Assembly: GCA_023129715.1 (NCBI GenBank)
Contig: JAGMBO010000045.1
Coordinates: 62,001 to 126,000 of the forward strand
Length of the DNA stretch: 64,000 bases
Source: Candidatus Eiseniibacteriota bacterium
GTDB lineage: Bacteria > Eisenbacteria > RBG-16-71-46 > CAIMUX01 > WJJG01
Direction: 5' to 3'
Shown: positions 2,814-9,591 of the stretch, piece by piece
Numbering within the stretch: position 1 is the first letter of the stretch
Layout of the letters: the number at the start of each line of letters is the position of its first letter
Program-made: the position numbers and the translations under genes
Notes under the pieces: generated by a model
The model's database searches: none
The model's input: only the letters and a program-made list of their open reading frames with translations
Told to the model about the DNA's origin: nothing

Positions 2814-3127
2814 GGCACGCTCCCGCGATCGGACCAGTCCCTCGTCGACACATCCTAGCAATCTCGGGGCCACGTGACACCCCCCGAGCTGAAGGCCGAC
2901 AAGGCCCCCGCCGATGGTCCCCACAGGGGGGGGAGAGACCTGCCGGCGGACTCGGCCTGGACTGCCCCACCCCGCCTGGACTAGAATGAGGATTCTACGT
3001 TCGATCGGAGACGAGGCCGGCGACGCCTTCGTGGCGCGCCGCGGTCGTGCCCGAACCGCAGATCGGTCTCGAGCCGCACCGCAGGTCGCACCACCGATCG
3101 CGTCTGCTCGCATGGGAGGAGGTCGTC

Positions 3128-3580
3128 ATGCCCGAGATGCGCAATCGCGTCGAAATCATGGTTCCCCACGGACAGTTCGTCGTCCGTCAAGCCCGATGTC
3201 CGCAGGGATGCGACCTGATGGATGCCGAACACCCGATCCACGATCACCACTCGATCCACGTCGAGGCGACATGTGAGGGGCAGACCGGATCGCTCTACCT
3301 CGACCCCGTCTATGGCAGCCATGACAACATCGCCGAGCTCGAGATCCCCAAGGGCGAGATTGTCGAGTTCACTTGCCCGCATTGCGGCACGTCCCTGTCC
3401 GACCCCGACCGCAGTTGTGCGAAGTGTTCGGCCGGCATCTTCACGATTCATCTGCCCAAGGGAGGGTTCATCGAGGCGTGCCGGCGCGGCGGGTGCTTGA
3501 ACCACCGCCTCCAGCTCGTGACCGGCGAGCAGGCGATGCAGCGCGTCTTCGATGAGCTGGGGATGGATGCGTTTCTTTGA
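3128..3580 (+). CDS. Small zinc-ribbon protein of unknown function
   Basis: This is a 150-residue protein that I do not recognise. Starting at the ATG at 3128, which has GGAGGAGG just upstream, it carries CPQGC near residue 25, a CEG cysteine, a CPHCG...CAKC pair that looks like a zinc ribbon, and CRRGGC near the C-terminus. It is rich in His and Asp around DAEHPIHDHHSIHVEA. There is no signal peptide or membrane segment, so it is probably cytosolic. It is divergently transcribed from radA. Its last codons (MDAFL and stop) are also the first unit of the 13-bp tandem repeat that follows, so the C-terminus may have been reshaped by repeat growth. Confidence 0.75.
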   Translation: MPEMRNRVEIMVPHGQFVVRQARCPQGCDLMDAEHPIHDHHSIHVEATCEGQTGSLYLDPVYGSHDNIAELEIPKGEIVEFTCPHCGTSLSDPDRSCAKCSAGIFTIHLPKGGFIEACRRGGCLNHRLQLVTGEQAMQRVFDELGMDAFL

Positions 3581-3656
3581 TGCGCTTTTCTGATGTACTT
3601 CCTTGATGCGCTTTCTGGATGCGCATCTTTGACGTGCTTCCTGGACACATCTCCCT
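3566..3656 (+). repeat. 13-bp degenerate tandem repeat, 7 units
   Basis: Seven consecutive 13-base units follow the pattern GATGCGCTTCCTT with one to four changes each. They start at 3566, 3579, 3592, 3605, 3618, 3631 and 3644. The first unit overlaps the stop of the zinc-ribbon gene and the last runs into a methyltransferase-like fragment. Five related units occur at 17534-17598 before a second copy of the same fragment. The period is not a multiple of three, and the units are adjacent without unique spacers, so this is not a CRISPR array. Confidence 0.9.
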
Positions 3657-3951: not shown

Positions 3952-5016
3952 ATGGTTCACCCCGCACAGCGGATGCGTGTGCCTCTATGCATTGGACTCT
4001 GCCTGGCAGTGAGCCTGAGTCTCACGAGTCCCGTGCGGCCGCAGACGAGTGATGCCGAGCTCTATGCCATTTTCGATGGCGACTCGATGTACACCGTGCT
4101 TCCAGCCAACACGATTCCAGCGATCCTGGCGCCCGAGTTCGTCACCAGTGAGGACGCCGCCGCTCAGATGCTGCCCGCTGAGCCGGTGATCGGGATCGTC
4201 CTCGCCGGCCGGGCGCGGGCCTACTCGACCTGGCACCTCGATGGACACGAGATCGTCAACGATGAACTCTCCGGCAGGCTGATTGCCGCCACCTGGTGAC
4301 CGCTGTTGCGTACGGGCGTGGTCTACGCTCGCGAGTCGCTCGGAGATACCCTGACCTTCATCGTTTCGGGAAAGCTATGGCGTAATGGGCTGGTGATGCA
4401 GGACCGCGAGACCGAGACCCTCTGGAGCCAACCGATCGGCGAGGCGATGGAGGGGCCGCTGATGGGACGGCTGCTCGAACCCCTTCCGAGTGTGCAGACG
4501 ACGTGGAGTGAGTGGAACTCGGCGCATCCTGAGTCCGACGTGCTGCGCAAGAAGGAGGAGGTCACTCACTCGGTCTATCAACGCTATTTCGATGATTCCG
4601 ATCGGATGGGGATCTTCCCGATCCATTGGGATGCAGACCGCTTGCCCGCCAAGATTCTCGTCCATGGCCTGCGGCACTGGCCTCACACGCTAGCGATTAC
4701 CGAGGATACCCTCTCCGCCGGATACCCGCTCCACGCGTCCCTCGGTGAGCATCCGATCGTCGCGTTCCGCGGATCGGATGGAGGCGTGCGGGCCTTCAGC
4801 ACACGGGTCGGTTCACGATCACTGACCTTCGAGGCAACTGAACGCGAGGGCCCCATCCGGGATCAGGAGACCGGCTCGAGCTGGGACCTGACCCGCGGGT
4901 ACTGCACCGCGGGACCCTGCGCGGGAGCTGAGTTGACCGAAGAGGTCGTTCGGACCGCCTTCTGGTTCGCCTGGAGTGCCTTCTATCCCGAAACTGACGT
5001 CATCTCTGGACAATAG
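3952..5016 (+). CDS. DUF3179-family exported protein with an in-frame TGA, possible selenoprotein
   Basis: The 354-codon frame begins MVHPAQRMRV with a signal peptide and a GAGAGGA site upstream. It runs through HEIVND, VSGKLWRNGLVMQDR, ETLWSQ, DRMGIFPI and a C-terminal WFAWSAFYPETD, all typical of DUF3179, a family of unknown function. The frame is uninterrupted except for TGA at 4297-4299, codon 116. Family members as I recall them read CPLC at this point; here it is ATW-TGA-P-L-L-R-T-G, so the TGA replaces the first Cys and Leu (TTG) the second. A hairpin with a GGTCT loop lies 20 bases after the TGA (4313-4331). Either the TGA encodes selenocysteine, giving one full-length protein, or this is a one-lesion pseudogene. 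The remaining 238 codons show no other damage. Confidence 0.75.
4313..4331 (+). promoter_or_regulatory. Putative bacterial SECIS hairpin
   Basis: The RNA can form a seven-pair stem (4313-4319 with 4325-4331, one G-U pair at 4315/4329) closed by the five-base loop GGUCU at 4320-4324. Twenty bases separate the TGA from the loop. In E. coli fdhF the SelB-binding hairpin also carries GGUCU in its loop at nearly the same distance from the UGA. The bulged U of the E. coli element is not present. The element lies within coding sequence, as bacterial SECIS elements do. Confidence 0.55.
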
Positions 5017-5356: not shown

Positions 5357-5959
5357 ATGAACGAGGGCTCTCCTCCAGCGGCCGAGGACAGGGACCGGCC
5401 CGAGCGGGACCTGATCCACGTAATCGTGACCCGATCCGGGAGCGATGACGCAGAGCGGGCCTGCTCCACCTTGCTCGGTCGCTACCGGGAGCGAGTCTAC
5501 CTCTGGTGCTATCGGTACACGCAGAACCATGATCGGGCGCTGGATCTGGCCCAGGAGGTCCTCCTGAATGCCTACCGAAGTCTGGGCACCTACGAGGATC
5601 GCTCTCGTTTCGGGGCCTGGTTGTTCACGATCGCCAGGAACCGGTGTCTGAGTGATCTGCGGCGGCCCGCGCTGTTGATCGATGACGAGGTGGATCCCAA
5701 TGGACTGCCCAACCCGCAAGGCAACCCGCACCAGATGCTGGTGGAAAAAAAGTCAGAGGCAGAACTGCTGGATCTGATCGAAGAACACTTGGATCCTCTT
5801 GAGCGAAGAGCGCTCTGGCTGCGGTGCATCGAACGGATGCCCGTCGATGCAATCACCAGCCTGCTGATGATCGAAGAGGCATCGGGTGCACGGGCACTCC
5901 TGCAGCGTGCCCGACGCAAGCTGAGAGCTGCTCTGCAGAGAGAAGGGGACGGCGCGTGA
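5357..5959 (+). CDS. ECF-type RNA polymerase sigma factor
   Basis: This is a 200-residue sigma-70 family protein of ECF size. Region 2 spans about residues 42-105 (LLGRYRERVYLWCYRYTQNHD, then ALDLAQEVLLNAYRSLGTY and RFGAWLFTIARNRCLSDLRR). Region 4 spans about 140-195 (LDPLERRALWLRCIERMPVDAI...RARRKLRAAL). There is a hydrophilic N-terminal extension of about 35 residues. It heads an operon in which the next start codon overlaps its stop (GTGA), a common arrangement for ECF sigma/anti-sigma pairs. It probably directs its own operon, but no promoter motif can be assigned from one example. Confidence 0.92.
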   Translation: MNEGSPPAAEDRDRPERDLIHVIVTRSGSDDAERACSTLLGRYRERVYLWCYRYTQNHDRALDLAQEVLLNAYRSLGTYEDRSRFGAWLFTIARNRCLSDLRRPALLIDDEVDPNGLPNPQGNPHQMLVEKKSEAELLDLIEEHLDPLERRALWLRCIERMPVDAITSLLMIEEASGARALLQRARRKLRAALQREGDGA

Positions 5960-6690: not shown

Positions 6691-9591
6691 ATGGCGGGGG
6701 GCGGCAGACGGCGCCTGTCATCCATCCGCAGCGGATACGCGGCGGCAATGGCCATCGTCGCCGTGGTGGGACTTGCGACGCTGGTCTCACCTTCGGACTC
6801 CGCCCCACTGAGCGATGAGCAGCGGCGCGTCATTGCTCGCATCGACTCGCTTCGAGCCATGTCCCAGCCGGCCCTGGCGCACACGGTCATCGATTCCCTG
6901 CTGCCGCACGCCCGCGCTACCAACGACTCGACCTACCTGGCCGACTTGCTCCTCCGCAAGGGCGTGGTGTGGGTGACGGTGGGGCAACCCCGCCCGGCCA
7001 CACCCGTTCTGCAGGAGGCTGTCGGCATATCCACGGCACTGCGGGACTCGGCGCGGCTCTGCGCGGCCGTGCGTTGGACTGCCGTGGCCCTCGGGGACCT
7101 CGGGCACAACGAGGAATCCAGGGCCCAGTACCAGCGGCTGCTCGACCTGGCCGATGCCATTGGCGATCGCCGGCACCAGGGCTGGGCACGGATCGGACTG
7201 GCCTGGCATGCGGGCCGGGTGGCGGAGTTCGAGGCCGCCACCCGCGAGTACCGTCTGGCAGCGGAGCTGCTGCAGGAGGCGGGCGATCTCAATGGTCTGA
7301 TCTGGGCCCGAAACGGCCTGGGGACGATGCTCGGAGAACTCGGAGACCACGAAGGCGCCCAGGCGTGCTACCTGGAAACAGCGCGCGTGGCCCACGAAAA
7401 CAACTTGCGCCAGGTCGCGGCCTACGCTCTGAACAACCTCGGTACCATCCACTACATCTACGGAAGTGCAGAGCAGGCGATGGTCTGCTTCCAGCAGTCC
7501 TTCGACTTGCATCAGGAGATCGGCAGTCTCAGGGAAGCGATCACCCCTGCCAACAATATCGTGTACTGCCAAATCCAGCTCGGCCGTCTGGAGGAGGCGG
7601 CGCAGACTCTGCTGGACTTGCTGGACGAGTGTCGGCAGAAGGACCATCAGCCGCTGTTCGCGACCCTGTTGAACAACTTGGCCAGAGTGCGCGTGCGACA
7701 GGGCCGCCCCCACGAAGCCGCCGCCCTGTTCCGACAGACGCTCGCCCGTGGAAAGACTGTTTCCTTCAAGCATCAGCTGGAGGCACTAACGGGACTTGCC
7801 GCCACCTTGGCGGAGGTGGACAGCACAGAGGCGGCCCTCGCCGCTCTCGAGGCCAGAGGCGACATCGCCGGCCAGCTGACAGGCGAGTTCATCGTGCAAT
7901 GGCACGATGAACTGGGCCATCGCCTCGCCGACGCCGGGCGGTGGCACGAGGCATTACATCACCTTCTTCTGGCGGCCACTGAGGCAGAGCGCATCGGTAC
8001 CGTGGGATACCGGGTGGGTGCTCTGGCCCGCGCAGGTGAGGTCTACCGGGAACTCGACATGCCGGATAGCGGCGTGGCTGTTCTGACCCGGGCAGCCGAG
8101 GTCTGGGAATCCGAGCGCATCACGACGCGGGATCCGGAGTGGCGCGAGTTGTGGGGCGAAGCAGGCCGGGCGGTCTACACCTCCCTTGCGGATCTCCTCT
8201 TGCACTCATCGCCGGGGAAGACCGGCGCGGGGAATGAGTCAACGATCTTCGATCGATTGCAGATCTTCAAGGCCCGCACGCTGCTCGAACGGATGTCTGG
8301 GCCGATCACGAAACGAGCGCTCTCCACGACGGATTCCTCCATCACCCTGAGCAGGCTAGCCACGTTGCAGCAGACCGTTCTGGAGCCGGGAGAGCTGTTT
8401 CTGGACGCCTACCTGGGACCCCAGGTCTCGATTCTCTTCGCCGTGACCCCGGCCGAGGCGCGGGTACTGCGACTTCCCGCTCAGGAGGAACTGGAGCGAC
8501 GCCTGCGCGGCTATCACCAGGCGATCTCCACCCCCCCGCACAGCGTCTCGTCCCAGGTCGGGGCAGCCGGTCGGCGGGAGGCGGGTCGGAACCTGTCGGA
8601 CCTGCTCTTGGGAGAGGTGGCAGATCTGCTCGCCGGCGCGCGACGTGTCATCGTTGCACCGGACGGAGCCCTGAACCTGCTTCCCTTTCAGGCTCTCCCG
8701 GCACCGGGCACGACCAGCGACCTGCAAGGCGAGGCGCCCGCAGTCCGCTCGTGGACCCGCGTTCCTTCAGCCACCATCTTGGCCAAGATCCGGCGGACCT
8801 CGGAACGGAGAGAGACACACCGGGCTTCCGACGTCCATTCGGGAACCGCGTCGGCTACCAACGTGCTGGTTGTCGCCGGGCGCCCCGATGAAAGCGTGGA
8901 GGCCCTGCCGGGAGCCGAGGCTGAGGCACGGAGGCTTGGGCAGCTCTATCGGAACGTGGACGTGTGTCTCTTGCCCGCGACACGAATGGCCCCCGAGCTG
9001 GCCGATCTGCCCCGGTATGATGTCCTGCACTTTGCCTCGCACGTTCGCGTCGACGACCAGTATCCGTGGCGATCGCGCATCCTGCTGGGCTCTGGCGGAG
9101 ATACCGACCGCTTCACTGCAGAGAATATCGCCGATCTCCGACTGCCTGGGCGTCTGGTGATCCTGGCAAGCTGCCAGTCAGCCGCCGGACGCATTGTCTC
9201 CGGCGAGGGGATACTCGGCCTGTCGAGCGCGTTTCTAGGCGCCGGCATCCCGGTGGTGGTCGCGACGCTCTGGCCGGTGGATGACCAGGCCACCCGCCGA
9301 TTGATGGATCACTTCTATGCAGAGCTGGCCGGAGGCATCTGTGTGGCTCGTGCCCTGGTTCGGGCGCAACACGCGCTGCGCAAGGATCCGGCTACGCAGC
9401 ATCCCTTCTTCTGGTCCGGCTTCGTCGTCATCGGCGATGGCGCCGTGTGCGTGCCCCTGACGCGACGGTCGACGCTGCCTCCGGCCGCACTGACCGCTCT
9501 GACCGCACTGGCCGTGCTGGTCGCCTGCTCGCTGATCATTCTGGCGATCCGGCTTCACCATCGCCGCGCTCGGCGGCTCGTCAGGCCCTGA
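6691..9591 (+). CDS. Exported TPR-CHAT (caspase-like) protein
   Basis: This is a 966-residue protein in three parts. An N-terminal signal/anchor (AAAMAIVAVVGLATLVS, about residues 15-31) comes first. A long helical TPR-type array at about 90-470 includes repeats such as LGTMLGELGDHEGAQACYLETARVA and ALNNLGTIHYIYGSAEQAMVCFQQSFDL. A CHAT domain occupies about 570-925. The clan CD dyad is present: His784 in LHFASH and Cys828 in ILASCQSA, with GEGILGLSSAFLGAGIPVVVATLWPVDD as in active members. A final membrane segment (about 931-950) ends in Arg-rich residues. CHAT proteins paired with TPRs are proteases or scaffolds in signalling and cell-death systems. Here the topology would place the domain outside the cytosol. 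GAGGAG precedes the ATG, three bases after the previous stop. Confidence 0.9.
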   Translation: MAGGGRRRLSSIRSGYAAAMAIVAVVGLATLVSPSDSAPLSDEQRRVIARIDSLRAMSQPALAHTVIDSLLPHARATNDSTYLADLLLRKGVVWVTVGQPRPATPVLQEAVGISTALRDSARLCAAVRWTAVALGDLGHNEESRAQYQRLLDLADAIGDRRHQGWARIGLAWHAGRVAEFEAATREYRLAAELLQEAGDLNGLIWARNGLGTMLGELGDHEGAQACYLETARVAHENNLRQVAAYALNNLGTIHYIYGSAEQAMVCFQQSFDLHQEIGSLREAITPANNIVYCQIQLGRLEEAAQTLLDLLDECRQKDHQPLFATLLNNLARVRVRQGRPHEAAALFRQTLARGKTVSFKHQLEALTGLAATLAEVDSTEAALAALEARGDIAGQLTGEFIVQWHDELGHRLADAGRWHEALHHLLLAATEAERIGTVGYRVGALARAGEVYRELDMPDSGVAVLTRAAEVWESERITTRDPEWRELWGEAGRAVYTSLADLLLHSSPGKTGAGNESTIFDRLQIFKARTLLERMSGPITKRALSTTDSSITLSRLATLQQTVLEPGELFLDAYLGPQVSILFAVTPAEARVLRLPAQEELERRLRGYHQAISTPPHSVSSQVGAAGRREAGRNLSDLLLGEVADLLAGARRVIVAPDGALNLLPFQALPAPGTTSDLQGEAPAVRSWTRVPSATILAKIRRTSERRETHRASDVHSGTASATNVLVVAGRPDESVEALPGAEAEARRLGQLYRNVDVCLLPATRMAPELADLPRYDVLHFASHVRVDDQYPWRSRILLGSGGDTDRFTAENIADLRLPGRLVILASCQSAAGRIVSGEGILGLSSAFLGAGIPVVVATLWPVDDQATRRLMDHFYAELAGGICVARALVRAQHALRKDPATQHPFFWSGFVVIGDGAVCVPLTRRSTLPPAALTALTALAVLVACSLIILAIRLHHRRARRLVRP

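Follow-up and report, generated by a model that had tools for sequence, protein, structure and literature searches.

A gene of the DUF3179 family (PF11376), on the forward strand of a 64-kb stretch of Candidatus Eiseniibacteriota DNA (the window), contains one in-frame TGA, which raises the question of whether this codon is read as selenocysteine (Sec) or ends the protein. The gene occupies positions 3952–5016, from an ATG at 3952 to a TAG at 5014–5016, and comprises 354 codons including the one putative Sec-UGA. On re-reading the frame, we found that its sole internal stop is the TGA at 4297–4299 (codon 116), as an earlier sequence-only reading of the locus had described. Sec at codon 116 is very likely, because the machinery for its insertion is present in the genome, the TGA is conserved, the hairpin that follows it covaries and the genetic code is standard. 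TGA conservation, the genomic machinery and the conserved hairpin are established by sequence comparison; Sec insertion is what we infer from them.

The reading frame and its homologues

When the TGA is read through, the protein scores 239.3 bits against PF11376 over profile positions 2–292 (gathering cut-off 27 bits), which places it in DUF3179. The profile search matched contiguously on both sides of the TGA (profile positions 2–64, then 66–292), the domain covers about 4108–4995 on the plus strand, and codon-position bias is alike upstream and downstream of the codon. The protein is probably exported, since its N-terminus (3952–4044, plus strand; MVHPAQRMRVPLCIGLCLAVSLSLTSPVRPQ, with the boundary set by eye) resembles a signal sequence. 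The protein of the nearest relative begins MMRRVLLLVLLATGVAAAQ, and the signal-like N-terminus is more evident in the relative from genome G008 than in the window protein.

Most homologues have Cys at the position of the TGA. Within a sample of 47 genomes of the phylum, DUF3179 was present in six; the equivalent of codon 116 is TGA in the source genome (G000), G008 and G011, and Ser in G005, G015 and G002. When the search was widened to a single genome for each GTDB species, with a two-sequence alignment as query, it yielded 74 loci. Of the 84 scored proteins, 14 have TGA in this column, 66 have Cys and four have Ser, so that the earlier placement of this TGA at an expected Cys was borne out; the 84 exclude 12 further rows with Asp or Asn, which arise from the second-half repeat or are weak secondary matches and do not represent separate proteins. 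The UGA thus aligns with Cys and is conserved as UGA in other homologues, the pattern by which a selenoprotein is recognised. Furthermore, each of the 14 TGA genes has exactly one TGA within the matched region, and the alignment of homologues that had been proposed as a check revealed no other stop there.

These 14 genes span Krumholzibacteriota, Eisenbacteria, Calditrichota, Zixibacteria, Neomarinimicrobiota, GN15 and one Dehalococcoidia genome. A tree of 78 proteins has a supported branch (98/82) that sets apart 13 of the 14 TGA sequences as a group with no other forms, and inside this group the window protein belongs to a seven-member clade (100/97); the fourteenth, L024, sits on a very long branch outside the group of 13. 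We detected tRNA-Sec in 12 of the 14 TGA genomes compared with nine of the 22 Cys or Ser genomes examined (Fisher P-value 0.009, kinship ignored); it was undetected in the other two TGA genomes, whose completeness is not given. Within the phylum sample, all three TGA genomes have tRNA-Sec, and among the three Ser genomes only G002 does.

The Ser forms are L022, L023, L025 and L126, and of the genomes that carry them tRNA-Sec was undetected in G005 and G015 and present in G002 and G076. Five homologues (L116, L122, L123, L124 and L129) appear to be circularly permuted, with the C-terminal profile segment matching before the N-terminal one. In many homologues, profile positions 78–134, which hold the Sec/Cys motif region, match again at about residues 234–290, with Asp at the Sec column. 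Because of these internal repeat matches and permuted homologues, the comparison suggests a two-repeat architecture for DUF3179.

The downstream hairpin

In Escherichia coli fdhF, the bSECIS lies shortly after the UGA and has a short stem capped by a GGUCU loop. A hairpin in the window (4313–4331, plus strand) has a similar stem and the same loop, although it lacks the bulged U and belongs to a different gene. Its seven-pair stem (4313–4319 with 4325–4331, including one G-U pair) encloses the loop GGUCU at 4320–4324. The sequence-only reading had reported such a stem and loop twenty bases past the TGA; the stem and the loop are as reported, whereas it is the loop that starts at 20 nt and the stem begins at 13 nt. 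Scored against the bSECIS model of PMC13188914, the hairpin presents GGUCU at 20 nt with 7 pairs and −9.1 kcal/mol. A bulged U is not among the features of this published general model (PMC13188914), and its absence, which had been raised as an objection, was therefore given too much weight.

Judged singly, the window hairpin is no more than would be expected by chance: its folding energy is ordinary (z −1.09 over 35 nt and +0.58 over 45 nt). Its significance comes from the comparative evidence, since pairing and covariation are conserved across the TGA genes. A generic bSECIS energy test was passed by 46 of 66 Cys genes and nine of 14 TGA genes. Energy alone failed to separate the two groups, and we therefore scored pairing at the fixed stem position. 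By this measure the TGA genes form on average 6.14 of the 7 pairs and the Cys genes 2.97, with all 7 formed in the window; the hairpin is absent from the bSECIS position of the Cys homologues. The stem occurs at an identical place in 13 of the 14 TGA genes, where the loops (GGUUC, CGUGU, GGUCU, AGUUU and AGUCU) follow the pattern NGUNY. The exception, L024, has a different hairpin with the loop GUU, 18 nt past its TGA.

In the alignment of these 13 sequences, 92.3% of cells pair, compared with 26–48% when one side is slid by 1–3 columns. Columns 22 and 30 are G-C in seven sequences and A-U in six, with no exception. The first of these changes exchanges Val and Ile, and the second is a synonymous third base of a Tyr or His codon; RNA pairing is the simplest explanation of the two columns. 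In addition, both sides of the pair formed by columns 18 and 34 changed in four sequences. The covariation score of 0.361 (0.215 after shuffling) was reached in 0 of 500 shuffles, although related sequences share changes and the counts are not independent.

Selenocysteine machinery and alternative readings

The source genome (4.83 Mb in 186 contigs, 95.9% complete) was searched for the Sec genes, a check that had been proposed from the sequence. It contains a tRNA-Sec gene that scores 68.8 bits, over the Rfam cut-off, and is confirmed by ARAGORN (anticodon TCA), together with selB (338 bits, cut-off 242), selA (538 bits) and two copies of selD. The genome accordingly has the full set of selA, selB, selC and selD that is taken to mark a bacterial genome with selenoproteins. 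The genes are located elsewhere in the genome, and none of selA, selB, selD and tRNA-Sec lies inside the 64-kb window. Taken together, the Sec machinery, the TGA in relatives and the covarying hairpin support the selenoprotein reading that the sequence had first suggested.

The two selD copies differ at the active site. One (L131, contig C109 of G000) has Cys there; the other (L132, G000:C138:42670-43593) has TGA at the catalytic-Cys position, in the context GAG[TGA]ASK, and is likely an independent selenoprotein of the same genome.

We considered four other accounts of the TGA. The first is that the gene descends from a selenoprotein and is decaying, its function gone after the loss of the Cys at position 119. 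The window protein is the only TGA member with Leu at this site (U+3), and its divergence from the G008 relative at first, second and third codon positions is somewhat greater downstream of the TGA (0.352/0.322/0.572) than upstream (0.235/0.198/0.469). However, third positions are the most diverged on both sides, and 238 more codons have stayed open with this coding-position bias; moreover, the hairpin retains all of its pairs and the conserved C-terminal motif TAFWFAW is kept. We regard decay as improbable.

A sequencing or assembly error that turned TGC or TGT into TGA, or a nonsense mutation in an ordinary Cys protein, might be invoked for a sequence that comes from one genome, but the codon is TGA in 13 other homologues as well, accompanied by a conserved hairpin that matches, and we rejected this explanation as highly improbable. 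Equally hard to credit is a pair of separate products, a secreted peptide of 115 residues and a protein of 236 residues restarted at the TTG at 4306. An in-frame TTG start codon does follow the TGA, but the PF11376 domain is unbroken across it, the restarted protein would have no signal sequence and TTG is absent from this place in relatives; this account was also rejected. Finally, if UGA were generally reassigned here (to Gly or Trp, for instance), the in-frame TGA would likewise be read through; such reassignment has a negligible probability and was rejected, because TGA ends 14 of the 28 long non-overlapping ORFs in the window, so that UGA is not reassigned and the code is standard, and because the DUF3179 frame has one TGA only and the Sec machinery is present.

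The UxxL motif and leads to function

Selenocysteine at codon 116 would make this gene a member of a known family. DUF3179 (pfam11376) is listed as a selenoprotein family with the motif UxxC/T (PMC9312934, PMC13188914), contrary to the earlier statement that no DUF3179 selenoprotein had been described; PMC9312934 credits the DUF3179 selenoprotein to Zhang and Gladyshev 2007, in an Olavius algarvensis symbiont. The window gene shares with the listed family the Pfam domain and Sec as the first residue of the redox motif, and differs in having UxxL in place of UxxC/T. UxxC/T is a descriptor in review tables and not a definition of the family; the window motif, U-P-L-L, departs from it, yet the protein lies inside the TGA clade. 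It is therefore well supported that the gene is a slightly unusual further member and not new in kind, since the family is already catalogued. The Cys-containing DUF3179 proteins (CPLC or CPLT, mainly from Pseudomonadota, Gemmatimonadota and Nitrospirota in our tree) have the same domain, with Cys at the Sec column; unlike the window gene, they have neither the TGA nor the hairpin, and their motif is Cys/Cys or Cys/Thr.

None of the papers searched mentions a selenoprotein together with Krumholzibacteriota, or selenocysteine together with Eisenbacteria; this is only weak evidence that the distribution of Sec-DUF3179 among phyla is little described. The present set places candidate DUF3179 selenoproteins with a covarying bSECIS in Krumholzibacteriota, Eisenbacteria, Zixibacteria and further phyla that are mostly uncultured. 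In standard gene calling, such genes would be truncated at the TGA.

As for mechanism, SelB carrying Sec-tRNA(UCA) would bind the hairpin just downstream of the UGA, and codon 116 would be decoded as Sec with no termination. The selenol, at the first-Cys position of the CPLC/T motif, would most likely serve as a redox nucleophile. In the relatives, Sec would pair with the Cys at U+3; this residue is Cys in 12 of the 14 TGA proteins, Thr in L024 and Leu in the window protein. The change of CPLC to [TGA]-P-L-L with loss of the second Cys, reported earlier, is confirmed by the homologue alignment, in which U+3 of the window gene is the TTG at 4306–4308 (Leu119, plus strand). As this Cys is lost, Sec would have to act by itself, together with an external thiol, or through a new C-terminal Cys pair.

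The pair in question is Cys318 (TGC, 4903–4905, plus strand), a candidate relocated resolving thiol, and Cys323 (TGC, 4918–4920, plus strand), with which it pairs in GYCTAGPC. These are the only cysteines of the window protein outside the signal region. The pair is unique within the TGA set; L060 has one Cys nearby. That the redox partner moved from the neighbouring Cys to Cys318/Cys323, giving a catalytic cycle unlike that of the relatives, is conceivable and, in our judgement, rather unlikely.

The protein is probably a thiol/selenol redox protein, since the Sec/Cys motif sits at a conserved position. The neighbourhoods of 12 TGA loci had no partner in common; the commonest Pfam family was FlpD, in three of 49 neighbouring ORFs. 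A UxxL member, together with the occurrence of Sec, Cys and Ser at a single column, could help to reveal the function of the probably exported DUF3179 family.

The structure was predicted with high confidence (mean pLDDT 95.4). A sequence search for solved structures gave no match other than chance matches to ubiquitin. Foldseek matched part of the model to Rieske domains (including arsenite oxidase small subunit and ring-hydroxylating dioxygenases) with a probability of 0.99–1.0, E-values of 0.01–0.1 and a TM-score of at most 0.6 on the target, and hhalign gave a weak collinear match over the C-terminal half (probability 1.7). The likeness of fold is partial: the Rieske ligands CxH/CxxH are absent from the aligned C-terminal half, which sets the protein outside the Rieske [2Fe-2S] proteins. 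The Pfam Rieske profile did not match the window protein and had one match (E 0.074) among 54 members. The model thus offers a Rieske-like beta fold as a weak lead. BFVD structure matches were two uncharacterised giant-virus proteins, which are uninformative on function.

Around the gene, a small zinc-ribbon ORF (3047–3580) lies just upstream, with an imperfect 13-bp tandem repeat (GATGCGCTTCTTT, 5.8 copies) at its end (3564–3642). Downstream are a sigma-70 region 2 protein (5357–5959) and then a TPR-CHAT protein of 966 aa (6691–9591).
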